Source: Betaproteobacteria bacterium SCN2
Lineage (GTDB): Bacteria; Pseudomonadota; Gammaproteobacteria; Burkholderiales; Thiobacillaceae
Direction: 5' to 3'
Assembly (NCBI GenBank): GCA_008923285.1
Contig: WBSG01000001.1
Span: 124,001-188,000, forward strand
Length of the DNA stretch: 64,000 nt
This document shows, one piece after another, positions 6,300 to 25,096 of this stretch. Each line of letters opens with the position of its first letter. Positions within the stretch are counted from its first letter, which is position 1. Below the pieces are notes generated by a model. It did no database searches. It was not told where the DNA came from and was given only the letters and a program-made list of their open reading frames with translations. The position numbers and the translations under genes were made by a program.

Positions 6300-9215
6300 C
6301 TATCGCTGCCCGATCAATTCCTCGAACTCGGCGGCGGGCACCGGCCGGCTGAACAGATAGCCCTGTGCGACATCACAGCCTGCCTGGCGTAGGAATTCAA
6401 GCTGGCGCTCGCTTTCGACGCCTTCGGCTGTCACTTCGAGCTGCAGGATGTGGCCGAGATGGATGATGGCCTTGACGATCGAGGCGCCGTCCCCGTCCGC
6501 CAGGACATCGCGCACGAACGACTGGTCGATCTTGAGCTTGTCGATGTCCAGTTGCTTGAGGTAGGACAGGCTCGAGTATCCGGTGCCGAAATCGTCGATG
6601 GAAAGCTTGACTCCCAAGGTCTTCAGGCCGCGCAGGGTTTTCATGGTCGCGGCCATGTCCTGCAGCAGAATCGATTCGGTCAGCTCCAGTTCCAGACAGC
6701 GCGCGGGCAGGTTCCATCTGGTCAGCGCATCGGATACGATTTTCAGCACGTCGCCGTGTCTGAACTGCAGGGCGGAAAGATTGACCGCGATCACCAGCGG
6801 TTCGGCGTCCGTCCTGAGCCAGGCGCGCGCCTGCTTGCACGCCTCGTTCAGCACCCATTCGCCGATTTCCACGATATGCCCGCTGTGCTCGGCAAGCGGG
6901 ATGAATTTGCCGGGCGGGATCAGGCCTTCGATAGGGTGCTGCCAGCGGACCAGGGCTTCGGCGCCGATAATCCGCCGGCTGCTGATGTCGACTTGCGGCT
7001 GATAGTGCAGCAGGAACTCGTGCTGCAGCAGCGCTCGATGCAGTTCGCCGGTCAGGCGCATCTGCTCCAGCAGGCTGGCGTTCATGTCCTGGGTGAAGAA
7101 ATGGTAGCTGCCGCGCCCCGAGTTCTTGGCGCTGTTGACTGCAGTGTCAGCGCATTTGAGCAGGCTGTCGAAATCCGCGGCGTCGGCGGGGAACAGACTG
7201 ATGCCGCCGGAGAATGAGATGTTCAGACTGTGTTCGTCGACGACGGCTGGCTCGGCGAACACGTCGCGCACTGCGTTGATGACGCCGGCGATTTCGCCCG
7301 GGTCGCGCACCTCGGTCAGCAGGATGGCGAACTCGTCGGCGCTGAGGCGGCTCAGGGTGTCGGCCGGGCCGATGCAGCGCTGCAGCCTTTCGACTGCCGT
7401 GACCAGCACCTTGTCGCCGATATCATGCCCCAGGGTGTCGTTGATCTGCCTGAAGTTGTCCATGTCCAGGTAGAGCATGGCCATGCCGGTGTTTTCGCTT
7501 TTCGCGAGCAGGGCCGCCTGTTCGAAGCGGTCGCGCAGCAGCAGGCGGTTGGGCAGATGGGTGAGCGGATCGAACTGGGCGAGGAAGGCCAGCTTTTCCT
7601 TGGCGGCGGCGTGCTCGGCGCGCGTGCGCAGCGTCACGATGCCGTAGGCGAGGTCGCCGGCGAGTTCTTCCAGCAATTGCACTTCCTCGGGGTCGAAGGC
7701 TTCCGCCTCGCGCGCGTACATGGTCAGCGCGCCTAGCACCTTCGCATTCGCGATCAGCGGCAGCGAAATGCTCGACTTGTAGCCGCGCTGGAGCGCGGCC
7801 TTGCGCCAGGGCGCCATCGCCGGGTTGGTGAGGACGTTGTGGTTGATGCTCGGCACGCCGGTGCGGATGGCGGTGCCGGTGGGGCCGCGCCCCAGTTCCG
7901 TGTCCGCCCAACTGATCTTGATGGATTCGAGATAGCCTTCCTCATAGCCGGATTGCGCGACCGGGCGCACCGAGCGCGCCGTGTTCTCTTCCGCATAGCC
8001 TACCCAGGCCATCATGTAGCCGCCGGTATCCACGCACAGGCGGCAGATGTCGGACAGCAGGCGGTGCTCGTCCTCGGCATGCACCAGCGTGGTATTGCAG
8101 TCGCTCAGCAGGCGCAGCGAGCGGTTGAGCTTGCTTTGCCGGGCTTCGCTCCGACGCAGGTCGGCTGTCATTTCCTGCGCCAGCGCCAGTGCCCGCGTGC
8201 GCGCGGTCACCAGCAGCCAGGCGACGAGTGCCAGCATGGCGCTGCCGAGCATGCCGGCAAGCGCGATCAGGTCGGCCTTGCCGTCATTGAGGCGCATGTC
8301 GAAAGCCGGCAGCGAGCGCACCGAAATCGTCCACTGGTGGCCGAAAAGGTCCAGCGTCCTGTCGCTCATGAACTGTGGTGCGGCTGGTTTCTTGCCCTTG
8401 TTGGAATCGAACATCAGCGTTTCCGCATGGGTGCCGTCGCTGTCGTAGATTTCGAGATCGAGGACGGCGCTGAGCTCGCCGAAATGCTGGCCCAGCACGC
8501 CCTGCATGAGGTCATTCATGCGGAAGGGGGCGTAGGACCAGCCGATCAGGTTGGCGCGGCGTCCTTCGAGCGTCTGGTGCTGGCCGGGGATCCCGTAGAT
8601 GGGCACGTACATCAGAAATCCCGCCTGCACCGCCTGGTCGATTTCCTGTTTCAGCCTGACCTTGCCGGACATGATGGCGCGGCCTTCGTCGCGCGCCTTT
8701 TCCATGGCTGCGCGCCGCACCGGTTCGGAGAACATGTCATAGCCGAAAGCCCGCTGGTTGCGCCAATTGAACGGTTCGAGAAAGACGATGGAAGTGTAGG
8801 TGTCGCGTATCCCGGGCGGGCTGATGTCGTACTGGGAAAAGCCCTGTGCGCGAATCTCGGCAACGTGGCGGGCCCGGTCTTCAGGCTTGATCAGCTTGGC
8901 AAAGCCCACGCCCTGGATGCCGGGGTACTTTTCGTCGATCCGCAGCGCGCGCACGTACTCGGCGAACTCGCTGCGCTCGACCGAGCTGGAAGCGGCGAAC
9001 AGCCCGCTGGCGCCTTCCAGGATTTGCTCGTACTTGTTCAGCCGCTCGTTGATGTTGGTGACGATTTCGCCGACGCGGAACTCGAACTCCTTTTGCAGTT
9101 CCTGGCGCACGGCCTTGCGTTCGGCATCCTGCAGCGCATAGGTGAGGGCAAGGCCGATCACCAGGAGGGCGAGAGGAACGAAATGCAGCCGCTGGATAGC
9201 CGGGCTGTTCAGCAT
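6300..9215 (-). CDS. Membrane CHASE-GAF-GGDEF-EAL c-di-GMP phosphodiesterase
   Basis: The 971-residue protein has an N-terminal membrane helix (about 10-28), a periplasmic CHASE sensor, a second helix near 325-345, a GAF domain, a GGDEF domain and a C-terminal EAL domain. The GGDEF signature is SADEF, so cyclase activity is probably lost and the domain may bind GTP or signal allosterically. The EAL domain keeps AEALVRW and DDFGTGYSS, with the metal-binding residues expected of an active phosphodiesterase. ATG 9215 is chosen because the longer start at 9281 would run into argB. It may lower the c-di-GMP pool read by the LapD protein at 13.7-15.6 kb; that link is inference. Confidence 0.9.
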   Translation of the reverse strand: MLNSPAIQRLHFVPLALLVIGLALTYALQDAERKAVRQELQKEFEFRVGEIVTNINERLNKYEQILEGASGLFAASSSVERSEFAEYVRALRIDEKYPGIQGVGFAKLIKPEDRARHVAEIRAQGFSQYDISPPGIRDTYTSIVFLEPFNWRNQRAFGYDMFSEPVRRAAMEKARDEGRAIMSGKVRLKQEIDQAVQAGFLMYVPIYGIPGQHQTLEGRRANLIGWSYAPFRMNDLMQGVLGQHFGELSAVLDLEIYDSDGTHAETLMFDSNKGKKPAAPQFMSDRTLDLFGHQWTISVRSLPAFDMRLNDGKADLIALAGMLGSAMLALVAWLLVTARTRALALAQEMTADLRRSEARQSKLNRSLRLLSDCNTTLVHAEDEHRLLSDICRLCVDTGGYMMAWVGYAEENTARSVRPVAQSGYEEGYLESIKISWADTELGRGPTGTAIRTGVPSINHNVLTNPAMAPWRKAALQRGYKSSISLPLIANAKVLGALTMYAREAEAFDPEEVQLLEELAGDLAYGIVTLRTRAEHAAAKEKLAFLAQFDPLTHLPNRLLLRDRFEQAALLAKSENTGMAMLYLDMDNFRQINDTLGHDIGDKVLVTAVERLQRCIGPADTLSRLSADEFAILLTEVRDPGEIAGVINAVRDVFAEPAVVDEHSLNISFSGGISLFPADAADFDSLLKCADTAVNSAKNSGRGSYHFFTQDMNASLLEQMRLTGELHRALLQHEFLLHYQPQVDISSRRIIGAEALVRWQHPIEGLIPPGKFIPLAEHSGHIVEIGEWVLNEACKQARAWLRTDAEPLVIAVNLSALQFRHGDVLKIVSDALTRWNLPARCLELELTESILLQDMAATMKTLRGLKTLGVKLSIDDFGTGYSSLSYLKQLDIDKLKIDQSFVRDVLADGDGASIVKAIIHLGHILQLEVTAEGVESERQLEFLRQAGCDVAQGYLFSRPVPAAEFEELIGQR

Positions 9216-9252
9216 GGCTGGCGTGCCGGCGGGCCGTGTGCGAGCCGCCGGC

Positions 9253-10134
9253 TCAGGCGCGCTTGACCAGCGTGCCCACACCTTCCGGCGTCAGCACTTC
9301 CAGCAATAGGGCATGCTCCACGCGGCCATCGATGATGTGCGCGGTCTTCACCCCGCTGTTCACCGCGTCGACGGCGTAGCCGACCTTGGGAATCATGCCG
9401 CCGGAGATGGTGCCGTCGGCCGTCAGTTCCTCCACCTCGCGCGGGGTAAGCCCGGTCAGGAGCTGGCCCTGCTTGTCGAGCACGCCCGGCGTGTTGGTCA
9501 TGAAAATGACCTTTTCCGCCTGCAGCACGCCGGCGATCTTGCCGGCGGCGACGTCGGCGTTGATGTTGTAGGCGTTGCCCGCGGCATCGGCGCCGAGCGG
9601 CGCGACCACCGGGATGAAATCGCGCGCGTCCAGGTGCTGGATAATTTCCGGGTCGATGCTGGTGATCTCGCCGACCTGGCCGATGTCGAGCATCTCCTCG
9701 GCCTTTTCCTTGCTCTTCACCAGCATTTTCTTGGCGTGGATGAAATTGCCGTCCTTGCCGGTCAGGCCCACCGCCTTGCCGCCGTGCTTGTTGATGAGGG
9801 TGACGATGTCCTGGTTGACCAGGCCGCCCAGCACCATTTCCACCACGTCGAGGGTTTCCTCGTCGGTCACGCGCATGCCCTGGATGAACTCGCTCTGCTT
9901 GCCGATGCGCTGCAGCAGGCCGGCGATCTGCGGGCCGCCGCCATGGATGATGACGGGGTTCATGCCGACCAGCTTCAGCAGCACCACGTCCTTGGCGAAG
10001 GCTTCCATCAGGTGGCGCTCGGTCATGGCGTTGCCGCCGTACTTGATGACGATGGTCTTGTCATAAAAGCGCTGGATGTAGGGCAGGGCTTCGGAAAGGA
10101 TATGAGCCTTGTCGGCGGGGGAGTATGTGGTCAT
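9253..10134 (-). CDS. argB: Acetylglutamate kinase ArgB
   Basis: The 293-residue cytoplasmic enzyme phosphorylates N-acetyl-L-glutamate, the second step of arginine synthesis. The amino-acid-kinase features are clear: KYGGNAM near residue 34, the glycine-rich HGGGPQI near 69, and a C-terminal SGGMIPKV and [11 protein letters not shown]. An extended N-terminal helix ([15 protein letters not shown]) is typical of arginine-sensitive hexameric forms, suggesting feedback inhibition by arginine. It appears to be a single-gene unit; the c-di-GMP gene starts 38 bp downstream. Confidence 0.97.
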
Positions 10135-10822: not shown

Positions 10823-12706
10823 TTACTTGATGACGCGCATTTCCACGCGGCGGTTCTGCGCCCGGCCGCTGGCGCTTTCGTTGCCGGTGACGGGGGCGGC
10901 TTCGCCGTAGCCCTTGGAGCTGAGGCGGCCGGCATCGACACCCTTGGAGATGAAGTAGTCCATCACCGTCCTGGCGCGGCGGTCGGAAAGGTCGCGGTTG
11001 TATTCGTCGGAACCGACGCTGTCGGTATGGCCGCCGATCTCGACCTTGATTTCCGGATAGCGCTGCATGACCGCCGCTGCCTCGTCGAGGATCGGCTTGG
11101 CATCGGGCCGCAGGGTGTCCTTGTCGAAATCGAAGTTCACGCCCTTGAGAATGGTCACGTCCTGCAGCGGGCAGCCGGTATGGTCAACCCGGGTGCCCTT
11201 CGGCGTGTCGGGGCACTTGTCCTTGTCGTCGGTCACGCCGTCGCCGTCGGCATCGCCGACTGGGGCGGTTTCAGGCGGCAGCAGGCCGGGGTTGGCGGCC
11301 ATGGCGTCGGCGAAAACCTTGTCCTTGTCCACCGACAGCTGGCCTACGCCGGAAGGCGGGCAGATGGTGTCGGGATCGAATTCGGCCTTTTCCTTGCCGT
11401 CGAACAGGTTGGGCGTATCCAGGCGCTGCAGGCCGATGCTGGCGAGCAGGGTGCCGGTGGCGCCGTGGGTGCGGCCATAGGCCTGGACGTAGTCGTGGCT
11501 GGCGTTGAGGTAGGCACGGCGGGCTTCAAACAGCTCGTTTTCCGTATCCAGCAGGTCGAGCAGGGTGCGCTGGCCGATGTCGAACTGCTTGCGGTAGGCG
11601 TCGCGCGCCTTTTCGGTCGCGGTCAGGTGCTGCTCCAGATATTGCAGCTGCTCGCCGAGGCGGCCGATGTCGTTGTGCGCGATGGTCAGGGTCTGGCGCA
11701 CGTCGCGGCAGACCTTGTCGCGCAGGTCCTTGGCAATGCTCACGCGCTCGACTGCGGCGCGCTCGCCGGCCGCGTCGGAGCCGCCGCGGAACAGATTGTA
11801 GTTGAGGGCGAGGCCGATCTTGCGGTTGTCATAGGTGCCGTCGATGCCGTCGGTGTCCCAACCCCAGCTTTGCGCGGCCTGCAGATCCAGGCGCGGATAG
11901 TAGGGGGCGCGCTTGACGTCGACGTCGGCCATGGAGGAAACGATGTTCTCGTTGGCGGCGGCCAGTTGCGGGTTGAGTTCGTAGGCTTTGCGCAGCGCAT
12001 CGGCCGTCTTCGGCGGCACGTCCTGGGTCAGCTTGGGCAGCGCGGCCATTTCTTCGGCAGGCAGCGAGCCGACGATGCGCTGGTAGCGGGCGCTGACGTC
12101 ATGCAGGTTGCTGGCTTCGGTCAGCAGGTTGGATTCGGCCAGCGCCAGGCGGCCGCTGGCCTGTTCGAGGTCGACGCCGCGGCCGACGCCGAGCTTGACC
12201 TTGCGCTGGATCTGTTCGTAGACGGCGCGGTGCTGGACATAGTTCTGCTCGGCCAGCTTGTGCAGCGCGCGATAGCGCAGCACGTCGTTGTAGGCGCGCA
12301 TGGCTTCGAGGGCGGCGGTTTCGGAGGCATCCAGCAACTCGTAGTAGCGCACGCGCTGGGCGTAGTTCAGGCGCTTGACGTCGCTGCGGGTGGCAAAGCC
12401 GTCAAACAGGATCTGGTTCAGGCGCAGTTCGACGCCCCTGGAGGTGAAGTCGCGGTCGCCGCCGGCAGCGGCCGGCTCATCCATCCATTCGCGGAAGATG
12501 CCGGCGTTGAGGTCCAGCGAGGGATAGTAGCGCCCCTTGGCGATGCCGACGTTTTCCGTCGCTTCCTTGTAGGCGTGCCATTTGGCCTGCACTTCTGGGT
12601 TGCGCAGCACCGCCTCCTGGGCTGCATCCTTGATCGAGATCGGCTGCGCGTACGCGGTGGACACCATCGCGGCCAGTACCGAAACCTTGAACCATTTCGA
12701 AATCAT
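10823..12706 (-). CDS. TolC-family outer-membrane channel fused to an OmpA peptidoglycan-binding domain (LapE-like)
   Basis: The 627-residue protein starts with a signal peptide (cleavage near VSTAYA-QP). Two TolC-type outer-membrane-efflux repeats follow (about 25-440), with NPEVQAKW, a tract of long amphipathic helices, and the second-repeat NPQLAAANENI. A linker near 490-520 holds a calcium-type acidic repeat (DADGDGVTDDKDKCPD, thrombospondin type 3-like). The last 110 residues are an OmpA-like domain (VNFDFDKDTLRPDA, GGHTDSVGSDEYN, RAQNRRVEMRV) that should bind peptidoglycan. It sits beside lapG and lapD and is the likely outer-membrane pore for the LapBC exporter. Ordinary TolC or LapE is about 450 residues and lacks the OmpA part. 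Confidence 0.92.
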   Translation of the reverse strand: MISKWFKVSVLAAMVSTAYAQPISIKDAAQEAVLRNPEVQAKWHAYKEATENVGIAKGRYYPSLDLNAGIFREWMDEPAAAGGDRDFTSRGVELRLNQILFDGFATRSDVKRLNYAQRVRYYELLDASETAALEAMRAYNDVLRYRALHKLAEQNYVQHRAVYEQIQRKVKLGVGRGVDLEQASGRLALAESNLLTEASNLHDVSARYQRIVGSLPAEEMAALPKLTQDVPPKTADALRKAYELNPQLAAANENIVSSMADVDVKRAPYYPRLDLQAAQSWGWDTDGIDGTYDNRKIGLALNYNLFRGGSDAAGERAAVERVSIAKDLRDKVCRDVRQTLTIAHNDIGRLGEQLQYLEQHLTATEKARDAYRKQFDIGQRTLLDLLDTENELFEARRAYLNASHDYVQAYGRTHGATGTLLASIGLQRLDTPNLFDGKEKAEFDPDTICPPSGVGQLSVDKDKVFADAMAANPGLLPPETAPVGDADGDGVTDDKDKCPDTPKGTRVDHTGCPLQDVTILKGVNFDFDKDTLRPDAKPILDEAAAVMQRYPEIKVEIGGHTDSVGSDEYNRDLSDRRARTVMDYFISKGVDAGRLSSKGYGEAAPVTGNESASGRAQNRRVEMRVIK

Positions 12707-12907: not shown

Positions 12908-13612
12908 ATGGCCGTATGCCGATTGCCACGAATGTTGTATTCAAACCATAGCGCAAAACTCAGGAAATGCCTGGCCCTGGGCCTGCTTTTCCTGTTTTTG
13001 CCGGCCCCGCAGGCAGCGCCGCCCGACATGGAGAAAATGCTCCGCCTGGCGGAGGCGCGCTATGGCGCGCCGGCCGTGGTCGCGGTAACCCAGTGGCGGG
13101 ATGCCATGGCCACGGCCCGCGGTCTGACGGAAACCGAAAAAATCAACAGAATCAACGAGTTTTTCAATCGCAGGGTCGTCTTTGTCGACGATGTCGAGGC
13201 CTGGGGCAAAACCGATTACTGGGCCACGCCGCTGGAAAGCCTGGGGCGGGGGCGGGGCGACTGCGAGGATTTTGCGATTGCCAAGTACGTGTCCCTGCGC
13301 AGCCTGGGAGTGCCGCTCGACAGGCTGCGCCTGACCTATGTCCGAGCCCAGATCGGCGGCGGCTCGCAGGCGCACATGGTGCTGGCCTATTACCCTTCGC
13401 CCAGGGCGGAACCGCTGATTCTCGACAACCTGGTCGGCGACATCCTGCCGGCTTCGCGCCGGGGTGATCTGTTTCCGGTCTTCAGTTTCAACAGCGAAGG
13501 CCTGTGGGTCGGCAGCGGGGCGTCGGAAAAGGCCTCCGGCAGCGCCACGGCCAGGCTGTCGCGCTGGCGTGATCTGATCGCGCGGATGCGAGCGGAAGGA
13601 ATCGAATTATGA
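12908..13612 (+). CDS. lapG: LapG-type periplasmic cysteine protease
   Basis: The 234-residue protein is a bacterial transglutaminase-like cysteine protease. The expected triad is visible: Cys119 in GDCEDFA, His156 in QAHMVLA and Asp173 in LILDNL. The acidic residues next to the Cys (DCED) match the calcium-binding pair of LapG. A signal sequence ends near residue 37 (PAPQAAPP). LapG cuts a LapA-type adhesin after its N-terminal retention module and so releases cells from surfaces. ATG 12908 has an AAGG close upstream; ATG 12932 would give a more compact signal peptide and is also possible. The neighbouring lapD encodes its expected inhibitor-receptor. Confidence 0.92.
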   Translation: MAVCRLPRMLYSNHSAKLRKCLALGLLFLFLPAPQAAPPDMEKMLRLAEARYGAPAVVAVTQWRDAMATARGLTETEKINRINEFFNRRVVFVDDVEAWGKTDYWATPLESLGRGRGDCEDFAIAKYVSLRSLGVPLDRLRLTYVRAQIGGGSQAHMVLAYYPSPRAEPLILDNLVGDILPASRRGDLFPVFSFNSEGLWVGSGASEKASGSATARLSRWRDLIARMRAEGIEL

Positions 13613-13686: not shown

Positions 13687-15600
13687 ATGTCCCTGTTCAG
13701 ACGCATCTGGCTTGCCGTGATCGGGCTGACCGTCGCTGCCTTTGCCGCCAGCCTGCTGGTCAACACGTTCACCGCGCGCAGTTATCTCGAAAAGCAGCTC
13801 TATCTCAAGAACGCGGACAATGCCACGGCGCTGGCCCTGTCCATGTCGCAGATCCGCGAGAAGGATCCCGTCACCATAGAACTGTTGCTGTCCGCCCAGT
13901 TCGATACCGGCCACTACCAGGAAATCCGGCTGACCGACCCGGCCGGCAGGGTGATGGTCGAGCGCAGGCAGGAGGCCGCTGCCGCTGCCGGTGCGCCAGA
14001 CTGGTTCGTCAGGCTTTTCCCCATCAAGGCCCAGCCCGGCATTGCCCATGTGCAGGACGGCTGGAAACAGTTCGGCACCATCAGTCTCGCCAGCCAGAGC
14101 CGCTTCGCCTACCAGGACCTGTGGAAGGGCACGCTGGAGCTGTCGCTCTGGTTCGTGGTCGGCGGCCTGATCGCGGGCTTGATCGGCACCTTCATGCTGC
14201 GCCTTATCACCCGTCCACTGGATAATGTCGTCGAACAGGCCAATGCCATTACCCGGCGCCAGTTCATCACCGTGGACCTGCCCAGGGTGCCGGAACTGAA
14301 GAGCGTGGTGCGCGCGATGAACGACATGGTCATGCGCGTCAAGCAGATGTTTGCCGACGAGGCGGCGCGCCTCGAGTCGCTGCGCCGGCAGGTCAACCAT
14401 GACAGCGTGACCGGCCTGCCCAACCGGGAATTTTTCATCGGTTCGCTGCGCGAGGCGCTGAACGGCGAGGAAGGCTCGGCGGTCGGCCTGCTCGCCCTCA
14501 TTCGCCTGGCCGACCTCAACAACATCAATGCGCGGCTTGGTCATGCCAAGACCGATGCCCTGCTGCAACTGGTGGCCAGGCAGTTGAATGAGGCCAGCGC
14601 GGCGCACAACAATTGGCTGGTCGCCCGCATCCGGGGCGCCGATTTTGCCCTGCTGGCGCCCGGCGCGGATGACGCGCCCGCCCTTGCCAACAAGCTCGCC
14701 CAGGACATGCGCGAACTGGCGACCTCCTGGCCCGAACTGGAAGGCCTGTTCCACCTTGCCGTGGTGGGCTACCAGCGCGGCGAGCCGATGGAAACCCTGC
14801 TGGCCAACGCCGACAGTGCCCTGGCGATCGCCGAAGGCAAGGGGCCGAACGAATCCTTTTCCAGCATGCATGCCGCCGCCGCGCCCTTGGCGACCAGCGG
14901 CGAAGGCTGGCGCAGCATGCTGTCCAATGCCCTGTCCGAGCAGCGCCTCAAGCTGGCCGGCTTTCCCGTGATGTCCGCCAGCGGCGTCGCCATTCACCAG
15001 GAGAGCGTCATCCGCCTGCAGGCGAGGGCGGACGGCCCCTGGCTGCCGGCCGGCGATTTCATGCCCATGGCCGAGCGCCTCAAGCTGACTGCCGATCTCG
15101 ACCTGCAGGTCGTGCGCTTGGCGCTGAACGGCCTGCGCACCGGACATGGCGACATCGCGGTCAACCTGTCGGCCGATACCATCGCCGACTGGGGGTTCCA
15201 CAACAAGCTGGTGGCACTGCTGGAAGACCAGCCGGCCTTGTGCAGACGGCTGTGGATCGAGGTTGCCGAGCAGGGCGTGTTCAGGCAGCTGGAGGCTTTC
15301 CGCGATCTTTGCCGCACGCTCAAGAAACTGGGCTGCCAGGTGGGCATCGAGCATTTCGGCCATCGCTTCGGCGAAATTGCCAAACTGTCCGACCTCGGCC
15401 TCGATTACCTGAAAGTCGACGGCAGCTTCATCCACGACATCCATCTCAATGCCGGCAACCGCGAGTTCCTGGCCGGGCTGTGCAAGATGGCGCATTCCAT
15501 CGGCGTTTCGGTCATCGCCGAGGGCGTGCGCAGTGCGGAGGAACTGGCCGCGCTGCCCGGGCTGGGCTTCGACGGCGTGACGGGCCCGGCGGTGTCCTAG
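13687..15600 (+). CDS. lapD: LapD-type c-di-GMP receptor with degenerate GGDEF and EAL domains
   Basis: The 637-residue inner-membrane protein has one helix at about 8-28, a periplasmic output domain (LapD/MoxY N-terminal type) to about 150, a second helix (about 155-178) and a HAMP segment (RLITRPLDNVVEQ). A GGDEF domain with signature RGADF and an EAL domain with QAR in place of EAL follow. Loss of both catalytic signatures is the rule in LapD, which binds c-di-GMP through the EAL fold and then captures LapG in the periplasm. A GGAGG ribosome-binding site is 7 bp before ATG 13687. It follows lapG on the same strand. Confidence 0.93.
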   Translation: MSLFRRIWLAVIGLTVAAFAASLLVNTFTARSYLEKQLYLKNADNATALALSMSQIREKDPVTIELLLSAQFDTGHYQEIRLTDPAGRVMVERRQEAAAAAGAPDWFVRLFPIKAQPGIAHVQDGWKQFGTISLASQSRFAYQDLWKGTLELSLWFVVGGLIAGLIGTFMLRLITRPLDNVVEQANAITRRQFITVDLPRVPELKSVVRAMNDMVMRVKQMFADEAARLESLRRQVNHDSVTGLPNREFFIGSLREALNGEEGSAVGLLALIRLADLNNINARLGHAKTDALLQLVARQLNEASAAHNNWLVARIRGADFALLAPGADDAPALANKLAQDMRELATSWPELEGLFHLAVVGYQRGEPMETLLANADSALAIAEGKGPNESFSSMHAAAAPLATSGEGWRSMLSNALSEQRLKLAGFPVMSASGVAIHQESVIRLQARADGPWLPAGDFMPMAERLKLTADLDLQVVRLALNGLRTGHGDIAVNLSADTIADWGFHNKLVALLEDQPALCRRLWIEVAEQGVFRQLEAFRDLCRTLKKLGCQVGIEHFGHRFGEIAKLSDLGLDYLKVDGSFIHDIHLNAGNREFLAGLCKMAHSIGVSVIAEGVRSAEELAALPGLGFDGVTGPAVS

Positions 15601-16038: not shown

Positions 16039-19000
16039 TCAGGAAGCCGTATGTTGCTGGTTGTTGACGAGGTCGTTCAGGATGGCGGCAGCATCTCCCG
16101 TATAGCCCGCCAGGAAGATGGTCTGCACGTCGGCCGTCCCGTCCGTGGCGCCCGACCCATCGGTGACATGGATCGTCGTGCCGGCAGCGGTCTGAGTGAC
16201 GTACAGGTAGCTGGCGGTGTTGACGTCCGGCAGGAGGTCGTTCAGGTTCAGCGTGTCGCCGGCTTCGAAGTCGGTCACCGTATCCAGGGCGGGTGAACCT
16301 ACGCTGCCCTTGTCGGCGAGGTTCCAGACGAAGGTGTCCGCGCCCAGGCCGCCGGTCAGGGTGTCGTTGCCGCCGCCGCCGACCAGAATTTCATTGCCTT
16401 CGCCACCGATCAGTGCGTCGTCGAGGCTGCCGCCAACAAGCCCGTCCTGGCCGTCGAGGGTGACGGTAAAGGTGTCGGTGGCGACATCGCCGTCGGCATC
16501 GGTGATGGTGGCGGTGACGTCGAAGCTCTGGTCGCTGCCTTCGGCAATCTGCACGATCGCGATTTCGCCGACCTTGAAGTCGCCGCTGCCGGCGGAGAAC
16601 TGGATCGTGTCGTACTGGCCGCTCAGCGAACCGCCGTCGAAGTCGAATTGCAGGAAGTTGATGACGGTGCCGCTGGTCATGCCCTGCAGCAGCTCAACGC
16701 TCATGCCGTTGCTGCCGGACAGGTCGACGAAGCCGGGCAGTGCCGTAATGGTGCCGGAGTCGACAACGACGGGGTTGCCCATGGCGTTGTGCTTGATCAG
16801 GGTGAATTCGATCACTTCCCCCGCGGAAAAATCGAAGAGGTTGAAGCGAAGGTTGTCCACCAGTTCCCACGATTTGTCGGTATCGGGGTCGTCATAAAGG
16901 CCCTTGTTCCCGCCGCTCTTGTCATATTGCCAGGACGATGCCTGGGTGAATTCGAGCACCAGCGTATCGTCGACGCCGACGGACTGCCCGGCGCCCACCG
17001 CCAGCGAGAACGCGGAACTGTTGACGGTGAGGCTGCCATTGTTGTTGAAGGCGTAGGCATGAATGACCAGGCCGCCCGGATTCGCCAGGCCGGTTTCGGG
17101 ATCGACGCCTGCATACAGATCATCGTTATTGCCCGGGTTGTCCTCGGAAATGATCGTGGAGCTCTCGAAGTCGACGTCCGGGGCAAGCAGGAAGAAGTCG
17201 TCGCTGTTGCCGCCGGTAATGCCGTCGGACAGGTCGAAAATGATCTCGCCGCCGGCGCCGTCGAGGGAGCCGGCGATGTTGACCGTATAGGTGCCGTCGA
17301 CCAGGTTGGGCGTCACCGTGAAGATCACGGTCTGCACGCCCTCGACATCGGTGTAGCCTTCGAAGCCGGTCGCGGTCGCGCGATACAGGATGGGCTCGCC
17401 GCCCGAGGTCAGGGCGTCGATCTGGTCGCCGTCCTCCAGTCCGTCAATCGACAGGACGATGCTGGCCGGCTCGTCGGCGCCTGCCAGCGCACCCAGAGTG
17501 GCGGTGCCGCTAAGGCCGTCTTCCTTGCGAATGACCATGTTGTCGGCATCGAGCATCGGCACATCGTTCTGCACGGCGATGGAGAAGGCGCCTGCGGCGA
17601 GGCCGTCGAGGGTTGCCGAGTCGCCGTCGGCATCGGTCACGGTTGCGGTGACGATGGACGAGAAGTCGATGGCGTTGACCGGATCGCCGTCGGTGACGAG
17701 GGCGGTGGTGGTATCGCTGTCGGTGTCGACATGATCGAGCTGGTCTTCGAGGTCGAAGGCCCAGGAGCCGTCGGGGTTGACCGTGAGGACGAAGACCACG
17801 GTGCTGCCGGCGCTGGCGGTGAGGGTGTCGTTGACGCCGTCGCTGTCCTCGTCGGTCACCGCGTAGGAGAGTTCCACGCCGTTGGAGTACAGGGTGGGCA
17901 GGCTGCTGGTGTCGGTCAGCAGGCCGAAGGTGAGGGAACTGGGTTCGTCGGCGCCGGCGGCGGTGGTGACGAGCGCGGCAAGCGAGCCGGCGAGGCCGGA
18001 AGCCTCGTCATAGGTGTTGTCCTGGCCGGCGTCGAGGTTGCCCTCGGAGCTGTCGGACGGTTCGGCGGTGGTCGACAGCGCGTCTTCGTAGACGGTGGCG
18101 GAAACCGGGGTGGCCTGTTCGTTGGCGACGATGGTCGGCACATCGTTCTGCACGGCGATGGAGAAGGCGCCTGCGGCGAGGCCGTCGAGGGTTGCCGAGT
18201 CGCCGTCGGCATCGGTCACGGTTGCGGTGACGATGGACGAGAAGTCGATGGCGTTGACCGGATCGCCGTCGGTGACGAGGGCGGTGGTGGTATCGCTGTC
18301 GGTGTCGACATGATCGAGCTGGTCTTCGAGGTCGAAGGCCCAGGAGCCGTCGGGGTTGACCGTGAGGACGAAGACCACGGTGCTGCCGGCGCTGGCGGTG
18401 AGGGTGTCGTTGACGCCGTCGCTGTCCTCGTCGGTCACCGCGTAGGAGAGTTCCACGCCGTTGGAGTACAGGGTGGGCAGGCTGCTGGTGTCGGTCAGCA
18501 GGCCGAAGGTGAGGGAACTGGGTTCGTCGGCGCCGGCGGCGGTGGTGACGAGCGCGGCAAGCGAGCCGGCGAGGCCGGAAGCCTCGTCATAGGTGTTGTC
18601 CTGGCCGGCGTCGAGGTTGCCCTCGGAGCTGTCGGACGGTTCGGCGGTGGTCGACAGCGCGTCTTCGTAGACGGTGGCGGAAACCGGGCGGTACTGTTCT
18701 GCCATTTCGACGACAGGCACGTCATCATCGAAATTCACGGTCAGGCTGCCGGTCGCCACATCGCCGTTGCCGTCGACGACGTTGTAGGTCAGCACGACGG
18801 AGGTGTCGTTCTCGGTGTCATCGCCTTCCAGGCCATCGAGGCTTTCATGCAGGACATTGTCGAGCAGGGTGACGGTGTACTCGCCGGTGGCGGGATTGAC
18901 TTGCACCGAGAACAAGGGATTGCCGTCGCGATCGCCGCCGGTGATGGTGGCGGTGAGGGTGTTGCTGACGTCATTCCAGGCAAAGGTCACGGTTTCGGTG

Positions 19001-19713
19001 CCGACTGCGGCGCTCAGGCCATCCATGGCGGCCAGATTGACTTCGCCGGGGCCGTCCGAACCGAAGCTGTGCGGCAGCACGCCGCTGTAGGTGGTTTCGT
19101 CGTTGTCGCCGTCGAGGTTGGTATCGATCCAGTCGCCCGTTCCGCCTGCATTTCCGCCCACGCCGTCATCATCCACGGTAGCGCTGGCTTCGCCTGCGCT
19201 GGGCAGGTCGTTTTCTCCGCCTTCCTCGGGAATCGCATCGCCTTCCGGCGCGCGGATTTCCTCGAGGGTGTTGAGAGGGTATTCATAACCGACTGGGGTC
19301 ACGGGCTCGACGATGCGCAACAGGCGCACGAAGTCGTTGCCGGCGTTCTCGCCCCCAGGGCCGCCGGCAGCAGGCGCTTCGAGGCCTTCAAGGATGTCGC
19401 CGCCCTGTTCCAGCGCCGCCACGACCTTGCCGACTTCGCCGGCGGCCGCAATGGCGGCTTCGCCCGCGCCGGGGCTGGTGGCGACCATGGCTTCCGGCCC
19501 CATCATGTAGGATTCGGAAGCGAGGATGGTGGCGTGATGGCCGTCGGCGAAGGCCAGTTCGACTTCGCCGCCGGCCAGGGTGAAGACGGTTTCGCCTTCC
19601 AGGACGGTGTCACCGGCAGCCAGGCGGCGCACGGCGCCGTCGGCATTGCGGGCGAAGGCCACGCCGGTTACGGAAATGACGGTTGCAACGACTTGGGGGG
19701 TTGCTGTGCTCAT
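16039..19713 (-). CDS. LapA-like surface adhesin: retention module, tandem repeats, RTX C-terminus
   Basis: The 1224-residue exported protein starts with a retention module (about 1-110) containing [12 protein letters not shown] and [12 protein letters not shown] LapG cleavage motif PAAG follows at 114-117. The middle has VCBS/cadherin-like repeats rich in Asp, Gly and Thr, with two 193-residue units nearly identical to each other. The C-terminus has RTX nonapeptides ([21 protein letters not shown]), which bind calcium, and a type I secretion signal. The ATG at 19713 is chosen because AGGAGGT lies 7 bp upstream; an in-frame GTG 9 bp earlier overlaps that site. LapA of Pseudomonas is several times longer, so this is a compact version. 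Its exporter is encoded by lapB and lapC nearby. Confidence 0.92.
17556..18688. repeat. Perfect 554-bp direct duplication inside the adhesin gene
   Basis: Bases 17556-18109 and 18135-18688 are identical by eye. The period is 579 bp, or 193 codons, and only about 25 bases between them differ. They encode two repeat units running from [12 protein letters not shown] to [10 protein letters not shown]. Such identity implies recent duplication or gene conversion, and the true copy number could be higher if an assembly collapsed it. Confidence 0.92.
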
Positions 19714-19779
19714 GGTTTCCACCTCCTGGTCAAAAGTTAAGGCCCGATTGAGGGCGAAGGGAATTGTCTGAACCTAGAT

Positions 19780-19934: not shown

Positions 19935-20646
19935 TTAGTCGGCAACCAGCTTGCCGTTGTCGAGCAGGTGCTGGATGATAGCCTGATCGTCGGCAAAGCC
20001 GGTGACCAGGTCGACTCCTTCGAGCGCGATGGTCTGCGCCACCGGGCCGCCGTAGTCACTGCTGATGGCGATTTCGGTGTGGCCGTCGCCGTTCAGGCTG
20101 AAGCTGAAGTGGCCGTCGAGAATGGAGGCAGTGCTCGACTCGGCCTGCAGCATGTCGCTGAGGTCCCGCACGTCGGTGCCATTGTCCCAGTCGGTGATGA
20201 CGTTCACGGCCGGCTCGGCTTCGCTGCCCTCGTCGCAGGACAGCCAGGCGAAGCTGTCGCCGACCAGTATGTCGCTGCCGTCAGAGCCGTAGAGCGAGCC
20301 GCTGCCGCTTCCGGTTTTTCCAGGATGTCAGCGCCTTCTGCCAGGGCCTGCACCACCTTGCCGACTTCGGTTGCAGCGGCGATGGCGGCCTCGTAGACGT
20401 CAGGCTGGTGGCCACCATGGTCTCGGGTCCGATCAGACAGGATTCCGATGCCTGGATGGCGGCGATGTGGCCGTCGGCGAGAGCGAGTTCGACGCGGCCG
20501 TCGGCCAGGGTGAAGATGATCTCGTTTTCCAGGATGACGTCGCCCGCCGCCAGCCGGCGCACGGCCCCGTCCGTGCCGCGGGCGAAGGCCTCGCCCGTCA
20601 GCGAAACGAGGGTTGCCGCTTTTTGCAGATTGGTCGTTGTGCCCAT
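19935..20646 (-). pseudogene. Remnant of a second LapA-like adhesin
   Basis: The reading starts at ATG 20646, after an AAGGTGG ribosome-binding site, with a retention module closely matching the intact adhesin ([26 protein letters not shown]). After MVATS the frame slips: one missing base near 20402 would restore the expected SPDVYEAAIAAATEVGKVV. That second frame ends near LEKPEA, where a third frame takes over with an RTX motif GSDGSDILVGD and a type I secretion tail ending LLDNGKLVAD at 19935. All adhesive repeats and the PAAG site are missing. The picture is an intact-to-wreck decay: one single-base deletion plus a large out-of-frame deletion. Sequencing error could explain the first change but not the second. 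Confidence 0.85.
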
Positions 20647-20813
20647 GATGCCCACCTTCTTTCGGGATGAATGTGTCGAGTCTCGAAAGGCGACTTTCCT
20701 GGTGTCAAAGATAGGTCTCCAAGAGCAAGTCGCCATTGGAAAAAAAGTTGGACGGCGGGCGGGCACGGCTGTCCGGCCCGATGTGGCGGGGCAAGCCCGT
20801 GCCGGGCGACGAT

Positions 20814-21458
20814 TCAGTGGACGGTTTTGGGCGGGATCTGGCTGGATTGCGGCGTGCCGTTGATCAGCAGGGAGAGCTGCAGGCGGTCGCGTACGCCCAG
20901 GCGCTCGAAGGCCGCGGTGAGATGCGCCTTGACGGTGCGCTCGCTGATTTCCAGGCGGCGGGCGACTTCCTTGTTGGATGCGCCGCCGGCCACGGCCAGG
21001 GCGACTTCCCGCTCGCGCGCGCTGAGCTTGTCCAGATGGCTGTTGTTGATCTGTGCGGAGCGCGTTGCCATGCCGGCGATCAGCCTTTGCAGGAGCGCCG
21101 GCCCGACCCAGAGGCCGCCATGCTCGACGACGGCAGCGACCTGATGCAGCACTTCCGGCACGGCGAGCGCATTGGTGTAGCCGACGGCGCCTGCTTCGAG
21201 CACGGCGAGGCCTTCTTCGTCGCTGGGTACGTTGGAAAGCACGATGATGGGACATCCCGGCGCGGCCAGCGCGACTTCCTGTACCAGCAGGCCGGGGTCG
21301 GGCTTGTCGCCGGCCACATGCAGCCAGACGAGGGCCTCGCCGGCGCTGGCAAGGTGAGTGCCGGCGGCCGGGTAAGTGTGCAGGCTTGCGCCGGGGAAGG
21401 CCGTGTTCCAGGTGGGCAGGATCTCGGGGCGACGGGTCAGAAAAATGTGCTGCTTCAT
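20814..21458 (-). CDS. LuxR/NarL-type transcriptional regulator with a degenerate receiver domain
   Basis: The 214-residue protein has a receiver-like N-terminal half (about 1-125) and a C-terminal LuxR helix-turn-helix (LSAREREVALAVAGGASNK, then ISERTVKAHLTAAFERLGV). The receiver lacks the phospho-accepting aspartate: the strand that should end in Asp reads ALVWLHV. Later receiver features (PIIVLSN, AVGYTN) remain. It may act without phosphorylation or respond to another signal. It sits between the adhesin genes and lapC with a 30-bp gap to lapC, which suggests a dedicated regulator of adhesin expression. No histidine kinase gene is adjacent. Confidence 0.88.
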   Translation of the reverse strand: MKQHIFLTRRPEILPTWNTAFPGASLHTYPAAGTHLASAGEALVWLHVAGDKPDPGLLVQEVALAAPGCPIIVLSNVPSDEEGLAVLEAGAVGYTNALAVPEVLHQVAAVVEHGGLWVGPALLQRLIAGMATRSAQINNSHLDKLSAREREVALAVAGGASNKEVARRLEISERTVKAHLTAAFERLGVRDRLQLSLLINGTPQSSQIPPKTVH

Positions 21459-21488
21459 CTGTTCCTTAAATTCCTGTTGGGGCGAGCG

Positions 21489-22898
21489 CTAGCGTTCCGT
21501 CAAGGCGTGGGCGTGCGCTCTCAGTATAGGTTTCAGCAGATAGGAGAGCACGGTTTTCTTGCCGGTCATGATGTCCACTTCCGCCACCATGCCGGGAATG
21601 ATCGGCAGATTCTTGCCCAAACTTGATTTGAGGGTGCGCACGCGCACGAGATAGAAGGAATTGCCATCCTCGTCGGTGACCGTGTCGGCGCCGATGTGGT
21701 CGAGCACGGCATCCATGCTGCCGTAGACCGCGAAATCGTAGGCGGTAAATCGCACCACGGCCTTCTGGCCGGGATGCAGGAAGGCGATGTCGCGCGGCGA
21801 GATGCGCACTTCCAGCAGCAGCACGTCCTCCAGCGGAACGATTTCGGCGATTTCGGTGGCGGGCTGCACCACGCCGCCGACGGTGGTGATCAGCAGGCGC
21901 TTGACGATGCCCTTCACCGGCGATTTGACGTTGGAGTGCTTGACCCGGTCGGATAGCGCGGAACTGCCGGCCGACAGACTGTTCAGCTTGGCCATGACGT
22001 CAGCCAGTTCCATCCTCGCCTCGTTGCGGAAGCTCAGCTCCACTTCCTGTATCTTGCGCGAGGCTTCGGCGATTGCCGCCTGCACGCGGATCATCTGCGC
22101 AGCGGCCTGGTCGCGTTCGCCGCGGTAGCGCGAGACGTCGCGCTCCAGGCGCAGCATCTCGACTTCGGACACGGCGCCTGCGCCTACCAGCGGCTTGGTG
22201 ACGGCGAGTTCCCGGGCGGTGAGGTCGTAGCCCTGGGCGGCCTGGTCGCGGCGCACGCGGATCTCGTTGAGCTCCTGGCTGCGCTGCGCGTACTGCTGGC
22301 GGGCGATGCTCATCTGGGTGTCGAGCTCGATGCGCCGCGAACTGTAGAGGTTGAGTTCCTGCGAGGCCAGCGCGGGGGCCTCCTTCTCGACTTCCGGCGG
22401 CACCACGAAGTCGCGGCCCTCGGCCAGCGCGCGCAGGCGCTCGGCCTTGGCCAGCAGGGCGAGATACTGGGCGCGGTTTTCCGCCAGCGACGAGACGAAG
22501 CGGGTTTCGTCGATCTTGAACAGCAACTGGCCCGGCTCCACCACCTGGCCTTCGTGCACCAGGATTTCGGATACCACGCCGCCATCGACCGACTGGATCA
22601 CCTGCACCTGCTTGGAGGGCGTGACCTTGGCGGCGCCGCGCGTGACTTCGTCGATCTCGGCAAAAGTGGCCCACAGCAGGAGGATGAGCAGGGTGAAACC
22701 GATCCAGCGCAGCACCGCGCGGGCACGCAGCGGCTCCTGGCGGACCTGCGCCCATTCGGCATCGGCGGCCCAGTCCAGGTCCTCGTCGGTCTTTTCCGGA
22801 ATCCAGCGCGCGAACAGGCGATCGATGAAATTTCGGCCGATGCGCTTGTCGGCCGCGGCGCTGAGGCCATCCATGATTTTTTCCGCGCGCGTCTTCAT
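21489..22898 (-). CDS. lapC: LapC-type membrane-fusion protein of the type I secretion system (HlyD family)
   Basis: The 469-residue protein has a cytoplasmic N-terminus, one membrane helix (about 66-85, WIGFTLLILLLWATFAEI) and a long periplasmic part. A biotinyl-lipoyl-like half is at VDGGVVSEILVHEGQVVEPGQ, an extended coiled coil spans about 150-300, and the second half-motif and C-terminal beta domain end near VAEVDIMTGKKTVLSYLLKP. This is the HlyD/LapC layout; it should bridge LapB in the inner membrane to the TolC-OmpA pore. Its ATG overlaps the lapB stop by 4 bp. Confidence 0.94.
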   Translation of the reverse strand: MKTRAEKIMDGLSAAADKRIGRNFIDRLFARWIPEKTDEDLDWAADAEWAQVRQEPLRARAVLRWIGFTLLILLLWATFAEIDEVTRGAAKVTPSKQVQVIQSVDGGVVSEILVHEGQVVEPGQLLFKIDETRFVSSLAENRAQYLALLAKAERLRALAEGRDFVVPPEVEKEAPALASQELNLYSSRRIELDTQMSIARQQYAQRSQELNEIRVRRDQAAQGYDLTARELAVTKPLVGAGAVSEVEMLRLERDVSRYRGERDQAAAQMIRVQAAIAEASRKIQEVELSFRNEARMELADVMAKLNSLSAGSSALSDRVKHSNVKSPVKGIVKRLLITTVGGVVQPATEIAEIVPLEDVLLLEVRISPRDIAFLHPGQKAVVRFTAYDFAVYGSMDAVLDHIGADTVTDEDGNSFYLVRVRTLKSSLGKNLPIIPGMVAEVDIMTGKKTVLSYLLKPILRAHAHALTER

Positions 22899-25096
22899 GA
22901 TGCCTTCTCGATGCGGCCCTGCTTGAGCGCCTCGACCACGCGCTCTTTCGGGCCATCGGCAACGATCTTGCCGTTGTCCATCACGATCAGGCGGTCGACG
23001 AGTTCGAGCAGGCTGGTGCGGTGGGTGACCACGAGCAGGGTGCGGTGGGCGCAGAACTGGCGCAGCTTGGTTTTCACCAGTTCTTCGCTGCTGTGGTCCA
23101 TGGAGCTGGTCGGTTCGTCCAGCAGCACGATGGGCGGCTCGTTGATGACGCCGCGCGCGATCGCCACGCCCTGGCGCTGACCGCCGGACAGCGATTCGCC
23201 GCGCTCGCCGATCAGCATGTCGAAGCCGCGCGGGTGCGAGTTGATCATGTCCGACAGACCGGCGATGTCGGCGGCGGCGAGGAGCTGGGCGTCCGATACC
23301 GCCGGCGTGGCCAGCGCGATGTTCTCGCGCAGGCTGCCGTAGAACAGCACGCCGTCCTGCGGGATGTAGCCGATGTTGCGGCGCAGTTCCGCCGGGTCAA
23401 GCTGGCGGATGTCGACGCCGTCCACGCGCACCGCGCCGGAACTCGGCTGGTACAGGCCGAGGATGAGCTTGAGCAGGGTCGACTTGCCGGAGCCGACGCG
23501 GCCGATGATGCCGACCCGCTCGCCGGCTTTGATGCGCAGGCTGATGTTGCGCAGCGATTCGAGTTCGCTGCCCGGGTAGGTGAAGGCGACTTCCTTGAAT
23601 TCGATTTCGCCCTTGAAATGCGGACGGCTGACGAAATTGGCGTCGACCGGGCGCTCCACGTCCTTGCCCATGACGCCGTTCAGCGAATCCAGCGCCGTGG
23701 TGGCGTTGTGGTAGTTGGTGAGCAGGCCGGCGACCTGGCCGAACGGCGCCATGGCGCGCGACGCCAGCATGGTGCAGGCGATCAGGCCGCCCATGGACAG
23801 TTCGGCATTGCCGATGCGGTAGACGCCGATGACGATGACCGTCAGCGTCACCAGCTGCTGCACCCACATCGCGCTGTTGATGCTGGTGGCGGCGAGCAGA
23901 CGCAGTTGCGCCGATACTTTGGCGAGATAGATGGCGCTGCGTTCCCACTTGCGCTGCATCGGGCCTTCGGCGCCGATGGCCTTGACGGTTTCCAGGCCGA
24001 CCAGGCTTTCCACCAGCCCGGCGTTGCGCATGGCGCCGGCGCGGTAGGTGCTTTCCGCCAGTTCGTGCATCTTGCCCTGGATGAGGAAGCCGTAGCCGCC
24101 GACAATGAGCATGCCGATCAGCGGCGGGATGAGCATGGGCCAGTCGATCCAGGCCATGACCAGGATGAACAGGAAGGCGAACGGCAGATCGATGAGCGCG
24201 GTGACCGTGGCCGAGGTGATGAAGTCGCGCACCATCTCGAAGGAGCGCAGGTTGGCGGCGAAGGAGCCCACCGAGACCGGACGGTTTTCCATGCGGATGC
24301 CGAGCACGTGCTCCATGATGCGGGTGGACAGGTCCACGTCCACGCGCTTGCCGGCGAGGTCGATGAAGTAGCCGCGCATTACGCGCAGGCCGAAATCGGC
24401 GGCGAGGATGATGGCCAGTCCGATGGCCAGCATCCACAGGGTTTCCACTGCCTGATTGGGCACCACGCGGTCGTACACGTTCATGGTGAACAGCGGCAGC
24501 GCCAGCGCGAACACGTTGATCAGCGCAGCCGCCATCAGCACGTCCCGATAGACCGGCAGGTTTTCCAGCATGGCGCCCCAGAACCAGTGGCGGCTGCGTA
24601 CCTTGCCGACTTCGGGCGCGCGTGAGTCGAAGTGGTACTGGGGGTGGGCCAGGATCGCCAGGCCGTCGTAGCCGGCTTCCAGTTCGGCAAGCGGCATGCT
24701 GACGGCCGCCTCGCTCAATTCCGGCAGGATGACCCGCGCGGTCTTGCCATCGTTTTCCAGCCCCACCAGCAGGCAGGCATTGTGGTCCTTCATCAGCAGC
24801 ACGGCCGGCAGCAGTGCCGGGTTGATCCTGACGATGGGGCGGCGGCTCATCTTGGTGGCGAGACCGGCGCGGCGTGCGGCGCGCGCGAACAGCGAGGGAG
24901 TAAGGCGATTTTCGACCAGCGGCAGCCCGGCGGTGAGCGCATCGTGCGAGCGCGGCTGACCGTGCAGTCGGGTCAGGGCAACCAGGCATTCCAGCAAGGG
25001 GTCGTGTGGCCGATGGCTGTCGGCCGGTTTGCTCCAGCCGGCCTGCTTGGCTGCGGCCGGTGTCGTGTCTCCGCCAGGCGATTGTTTTTCTGCCAT
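22895..25096 (-). CDS. lapB: LapB-type ABC exporter of the type I secretion system
   Basis: The 733-residue protein has an N-terminal C39-like domain (about 30-155). The catalytic Cys region reads LLECLVALTRLHG without the QxxxxDCG-type motif, so it is probably a non-cleaving substrate-docking domain. A six-helix permease follows (about 170-450), then an ATPase with Walker A GRVGSGKST, signature LSGGQRQ and Walker B IVLLDEPT. This is the layout of LapB/HlyB exporters of RTX adhesins. The reading overlaps lapC (ATGA), so the two are co-translated. The start ATG 25096 lacks a strong ribosome-binding site but fits the length of homologues. Confidence 0.95.
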   Translation of the reverse strand: MAEKQSPGGDTTPAAAKQAGWSKPADSHRPHDPLLECLVALTRLHGQPRSHDALTAGLPLVENRLTPSLFARAARRAGLATKMSRRPIVRINPALLPAVLLMKDHNACLLVGLENDGKTARVILPELSEAAVSMPLAELEAGYDGLAILAHPQYHFDSRAPEVGKVRSRHWFWGAMLENLPVYRDVLMAAALINVFALALPLFTMNVYDRVVPNQAVETLWMLAIGLAIILAADFGLRVMRGYFIDLAGKRVDVDLSTRIMEHVLGIRMENRPVSVGSFAANLRSFEMVRDFITSATVTALIDLPFAFLFILVMAWIDWPMLIPPLIGMLIVGGYGFLIQGKMHELAESTYRAGAMRNAGLVESLVGLETVKAIGAEGPMQRKWERSAIYLAKVSAQLRLLAATSINSAMWVQQLVTLTVIVIGVYRIGNAELSMGGLIACTMLASRAMAPFGQVAGLLTNYHNATTALDSLNGVMGKDVERPVDANFVSRPHFKGEIEFKEVAFTYPGSELESLRNISLRIKAGERVGIIGRVGSGKSTLLKLILGLYQPSSGAVRVDGVDIRQLDPAELRRNIGYIPQDGVLFYGSLRENIALATPAVSDAQLLAAADIAGLSDMINSHPRGFDMLIGERGESLSGGQRQGVAIARGVINEPPIVLLDEPTSSMDHSSEELVKTKLRQFCAHRTLLVVTHRTSLLELVDRLIVMDNGKIVADGPKERVVEALKQGRIEKAS

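Follow-up and report, generated by a model that had tools for sequence, protein, structure and literature searches.

A LapE-type adhesin pore with a probable built-in cell-wall anchor in a Thiobacillus-like genome

TolC proteins assemble from three copies into a trimeric export channel, and both ends of the TolC chain are periplasmic. In the type I systems for LapA-type adhesins, the retention module of the adhesin stays in the pore until it is cut by LapG (PMC6890996). The closest described relatives of the protein analysed here are the LapE/AggA pores, which share with it the TolC part and the same set of partners, namely LapG, LapD, an adhesin with a retention module, an LssB-type ABC transporter and an HlyD protein. 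In Shewanella oneidensis the genes aggABC and bpfG have an OmpA-like gene, SO4321, between them; in-frame deletion of SO4321 affects biofilm formation, and the authors of that study proposed that its product helps in the translocation of BpfD/BpfG or in the localisation of BpfA (PMC4523816). SO4321 thus resembles the tail of our protein in being OmpA-like, in belonging to the same kind of cluster and in the biofilm role of its deletion mutant, but AggA and SO4321 are separate proteins (PMC4523816), whereas in the pore described here the domain is built in. Two further systems are comparable in part. Salmonella SiiA (SPI-4) also brings a peptidoglycan-binding domain into the type I secretion of a giant adhesin, but as an inner-membrane proton-channel subunit of the Mot/Exb/Tol family and not as an outer-membrane pore (PMC12607715). 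The non-lipidated TolC of E. coli likewise receives extra anchoring on its periplasmic side from YbjP, which, unlike our tail, is a separate lipoprotein of family DUF3828; its authors did not find support for avid binding to the wall (PMC13082787).

The gene studied here was found on the reverse strand of the window (the whole stretch of 64,000 nucleotides that was analysed), as a single open frame of 627 amino acids, from 12706 to 10823, with no internal stop. The encoded protein starts with a signal peptide and lacks a lipobox cysteine. Its TolC (outer membrane factor) part, residues 24–422 (11441..12637, minus strand), was recognised by the NCBIfam model for type I secretion TolC proteins (TIGR01844, 295.7 bits against a cut-off of 225), and Pfam OEP matched the protein twice (E=9e-54). 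A conserved stretch ending in VDKDKVFADAMAAN separates this part from an acidic, thrombospondin-type-3-like linker, DADGDGVTDDKDKCPDTPKG, at about residues 485–512 (11171..11254, minus), to which TSP_3 (PF02412) matched weakly (E=0.0009, 19.3 bits, under the curated cut-off of 25). The tail, residues 525–619 (10850..11134, minus), is a complete OmpA-like peptidoglycan-binding domain (PF00691, E=1e-22, 80.6 bits against 27.2, profile positions 2–98 of 98). It keeps the Asp (in HTD) and the Arg (in LSxxR) that correspond to D271 and R286 of A. baumannii, residues that bind diaminopimelate in the Acinetobacter OmpA (PMC6572160). The tail is likely to bind the sacculus.

An AlphaFold2 model built from 31 sequences (mean pLDDT 84) showed a TolC fold and an OmpA fold joined by a linker of low confidence, and Foldseek matched it to TolC (1ek9, TM 0.78 by target) and to the peptidoglycan-binding C-domain of OprF (5u1h, TM 0.82 by target, rmsd 1.4). 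These folds and the profile matches bear out what an earlier note had read from this DNA, a TolC part followed by an acidic linker and a full OmpA domain with an NxxLSxxRA-like motif, which reads NRDLSDRRA in this protein. No Pfam match to DUF3828, the family of YbjP, was present in the fusion protein. Among the 12 OEP-family genes of the genome, only this one carries a tail and exceeds 500 amino acids, the other 11 encoding proteins of 430–496.

The genome is Thiobacillus-like, and the Lap-type locus around the fusion gene is complete. It lies head to head with a gene for a LapG-type periplasmic cysteine protease (12908..13612, plus; Peptidase_C93, PF06035, E=1.3e-15), beside which a LapD-type c-di-GMP receptor with LapD_MoxY_N, HAMP, GGDEF and EAL domains is encoded at 13687..15600 (plus; PF16448, E=9.5e-42). 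Both gave clear family and domain matches and missed the NCBIfam equivalog cut-offs: the best NCBIfam match of the protease was the LapG model NF045674, at 241 bits with a cut-off of 320, and the receptor scored 517 bits against the LapD model NF045673, with a cut-off of 1020. The adhesin, of 1227 amino acids (16039..19722, minus), combines a LapA retention module (NF033682, 90 bits against a cut-off of 50), T1SS-143 repeats (TIGR03660), RTX repeats and a type I secretion target domain (TIGR03661). A dedicated LapB/LapC-type transporter and adaptor are encoded with the pore, as an HlyD-type periplasmic adaptor (21489..22898, minus; TIGR01843, 382 bits) and an LssB-type ABC transporter (22895..25096, minus; TIGR03375, 986 bits).

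Other features of this neighbourhood deserve mention. Positions 20318–20660 (minus), between the intact adhesin gene and an open frame for a LuxR-family regulator (20817..21488, minus; PF00196, E=1.2e-16), hold a frame-broken second copy of the start of the retention module, 74% identical to the intact gene over 344 bases and scoring 43.9 bits with NF033682, under the cut-off of 50; this copy is the remnant of a second adhesin gene. Near the locus, a protein with CHASE, GAF, GGDEF and EAL domains (6300–9281, minus) is a candidate source of c-di-GMP input for LapD.

The frame is conserved over its full length in three other genomes of the genus (89–94% identity) and in other genera of the family (55–61%), its closest named relative being that of a Thiobacillus MAG (94%). 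Such conservation, in many genomes, rules out a chance frame or an assembly join. Within the family the fusion recurs in several genera, and most of the loci have LapG, and usually LapD, adjoining; for the three loci without LapG in the short stretch retrieved, LapG was found elsewhere in all three genomes. One genome of the family carries two fusion genes in tandem (locus L015, G029:C20:22781-26831). Among named genomes, fused pores were found in Thiobacillus and relatives, Desulfuromonadales, Methylotenera, Halomonas, Marinobacterium, Pontibacterium, Aliamphritea, Teredinibacter, Alteromonas, Chitinimonas, Vogesella, Niveibacterium and others. LapG lay within the locus in 17 of 26 such cases and elsewhere in the genome in eight of the remaining nine; one OmpA-tailed genome had no detected LapG. 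On a plasmid of Arcobacter cloacae the fusion adjoins type I secretion genes and a giant adhesin, and the same plasmid carries a LapG-family gene. Five loci (L161, L172, L179, L185 and L201) encode longer fused pores, of about 720–880 amino acids, with an extra segment between TolC and OmpA, which in L172 matches bacterial Ig/cadherin-like domains and is followed by two OmpA domains. A viral origin was also considered and set aside: no relative turned up in the viral contigs scanned, and the PHROGs matches were to families of unknown function.

In a less biased sample, of the class, LapG-family matches were present in 70 of 369 genomes. Eighty of the LapG-family places were retrieved; in 20 of these the LapG score exceeded 150 and the stretch also contained a TolC. 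Ten of these 20 loci carried a TolC-OmpA fusion, one had a separate OmpA gene and nine had neither, including one whose TolC frame is broken in two. The fusion is therefore no rare oddity, and the view in the earlier note that ordinary TolC/LapE proteins lack such a tail was too strong, as the fusion is present in about half of those sampled LapG loci that contain a TolC nearby. A profile search with the fused protein, which scored three candidates per genome, listed the best rows and may miss distant fusions, detected TolC-OmpA fusions in at least 13 of the 369 genomes. All 13 were LapG-positive, against 70 of 369 overall (Fisher p about 1.6e-10, with related genomes not being independent). 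The co-occurrence with Lap genes that the earlier note had proposed to check is seen for LapG in these genomes and, with LapG, LapD and a retention-module adhesin, at the locus itself.

The converse was addressed with a TolC-centred sample (TIGR01844, 124 genomes), in which the listed frames of at least 560 amino acids were inspected. An OmpA domain was present in only three, all from LapG genomes, and SPOR in three others; the remaining long TolC frames had an upstream run-on or low-complexity or other tails. Widespread occurrence of the fusion on unrelated TolC proteins that lack Lap genes, named beforehand as the result that would count against the idea, was not seen in these samples, OmpA being absent from the other long TolC proteins inspected. 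In many Lap loci, among them those of Aromatoleum, Thauera and Azoarcus, the tail of the pore is short and contains no wall domain, which indicates that an anchor is helpful but not essential. A different kind of extension was noticed in locus L243 (6576-9188, genome G313), where a TolC frame of 871 amino acids lies beside a retention-module adhesin locus and has a long C-terminal segment resembling an outer-membrane beta-barrel.

Unfused versions of the same pair also exist. In Marinomonas algicola the genes run in the order TolC, lipoprotein, OmpA, LapG, LapD, ABC and HlyD, and in both Photobacterium sp. GJ3 and one of the sampled genomes a free-standing OmpA gene lies next to lapG. In all three the separate protein has TSP3-like acidic repeats before its OmpA domain. 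Fusion of two genes that are otherwise neighbours suggests that their products work together.

A wider comparison showed that the end of the pore is occupied by more than one kind of domain. Among 77 tails scanned, 32 had OmpA, 34 the NTF2-like Pfam domain Cds6_C and two SPOR, one of the latter being OmpA and SPOR together in Halomonas fontilapidosi. Two unrelated folds, OmpA and a Csd6/Pgp2-type NTF2, are therefore found at the same tail position in Lap loci. By both sequence and fold the NTF2 tail groups with Bdellovibrio Bd1075, Helicobacter Csd6 and Campylobacter Pgp2; homology to YbjP was not supported for it, as the tail is Csd6/Pgp2-like and YbjP was absent among the matches listed, although the two may be distantly related. 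In Csd6 and Pgp2 the homologous NTF2 domain is joined to an LD-carboxypeptidase, whereas in related Lap pores it forms the tail, and the window protein has OmpA in its stead. The NTF2 pocket of Pgp2 binds peptidoglycan, with Lys307 needed for the sacculus pull-down; changes of Tyr233, Lys257 and Lys307 affect cell shape in Campylobacter, and Tyr233Phe alone does not abolish the pull-down (PMC8038945). On the assumption that the crystallised chain represents residues 43–325 after a four-residue tag, the Tyr233 and Lys307 columns are invariant in 33 of 33 NTF2 tails, and Lys257 maps to a profile column with Arg. The fused OmpA domains are similarly constrained: all 50 examined have the diaminopimelate-binding Arg, and 45 of them the Asp. 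Of 32 named NTF2-tailed cases, 28 have LapG, whether inside the locus or at another place in the genome, and in the other four none was detected; this association of OmpA and NTF2 tails with LapG fits the view that they moor an adhesin.

When the tails were mapped onto a tree built from 141 TolC parts, OmpA required a minimum of 11 changes of label, of which well-supported branches enforce nine, and 22 changes were needed for the tail labels of every kind; the tree was a quick one with some long branches and does not distinguish gain from loss. One genome has the reverse order of the window protein, with OmpA N-terminal to a Lap-like TolC (locus L248, 8627-10462). That wall-binding domains of unrelated families were recruited more than once to this end of the pore suggests that wall attachment is the selected property. 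Tails with SPOR alone were found on TolC in five genomes, in none of which LapG was detected (loci L027, with the tail at 2737-3258, L239, L244, L261 and L263). Wall anchoring of TolC is consequently not exclusive to Lap systems. The earlier interpretation is partly supported, holding for the architecture, the Lap setting and the idea of a wall anchor.

We consider it probable that the window protein serves a Lap-type adhesin system as its outer-membrane pore and carries a cell-wall anchor of its own. What is seen directly is the architecture, the Lap setting, the conserved binding residues, the swapping of tails among wall-binding families and the association with LapG. In the mechanism that we propose, three TolC parts would form the trimeric channel, the adhesin would be exported through it and, by analogy with LapA-type adhesins, its N-terminal retention module would be caught there until LapG cleavage. 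The C-terminal tail of each protomer would leave the TolC part on the periplasmic side and span to the peptidoglycan through the flexible acidic linker, where the OmpA domain is predicted to grip diaminopimelate through the Asp and Arg that it conserves. With as many as three such grips on each pore, pore and adhesin could be tethered to the sacculus, and a pull on the adhesin would be carried by the wall and not by a beta-barrel in the bilayer alone; carrying this pull would be the benefit of the tail. Other Lap pores would apparently achieve the same mooring with a Csd6/Pgp2-type NTF2 tail or with a separate OmpA-like neighbour. The broader proposal, that mooring to the sacculus is a general trait of Lap-type adhesin pores, provided by exchangeable wall-binding modules (OmpA or a Csd6/Pgp2-type NTF2 as a fused tail, or a separate OmpA-like protein such as SO4321), with a load path from adhesin to pore to cell wall, is one that we would as readily accept as doubt.

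The main rival to a load-bearing anchor is that the tail serves as a positioning device, wall binding keeping a non-lipidated TolC upright and in place for docking of the adaptor, a task for which other TolC proteins are thought to rely on lipid anchors or on YbjP (PMC13082787, PMC13095208). The lack of a lipobox in the fusion protein agrees with this, and the SPOR-tailed TolC proteins of LapG-negative genomes, as wall-domain TolC without Lap, point to a more general role of that sort. Nevertheless, OmpA tails track LapG genomes and none was found on other TolC of the same sample, and the genome's 11 other OEP proteins do without a tail, which leaves positioning as a serious but unlikely explanation. 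A still less probable one is that the tail is a regulatory or docking module, in which OmpA and the acidic linker would control cleavage or release of the adhesin, either by binding to LapG, to LapD or to the retention module or as a calcium sensor. The adjoining lapG and lapD genes, the TSP3-like linker and the role proposed for SO4321 in BpfD/BpfG translocation or BpfA localisation (PMC4523816) would suit it, but the diaminopimelate ligand residues are conserved, and the swap of OmpA for an NTF2 that keeps its peptidoglycan-pocket residues is easier to reconcile with a common ligand in the wall than with a common protein partner. That the fusion is a neutral accident, a lost stop having joined the pore gene to a following ompA-like gene without selection, would accord with the unfused neighbours of the same kind of cluster, but is very improbable given that OmpA occurs at either end, that NTF2 can take its place, that the tail label changed repeatedly on the tree and that the binding residues of the tails are conserved.

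The fusion is a common and widespread form of the known LapE-type pore that has apparently gone undescribed: in the open-access literature searched, we found no description of a TolC-OmpA fusion and no paper that treats LapE, LapG and OmpA together. A wall-binding domain in the pore would offer a direct physical answer to how a type I adhesin that plugs its own pore can hold the cell under shear, and it predicts a role for the unexplained Shewanella biofilm gene SO4321. The variety of wall-binding tails at the same end of the pore amounts to a natural experiment, and it suggests that a sticky adhesin of this kind is moored to the wall and not to the membrane alone.
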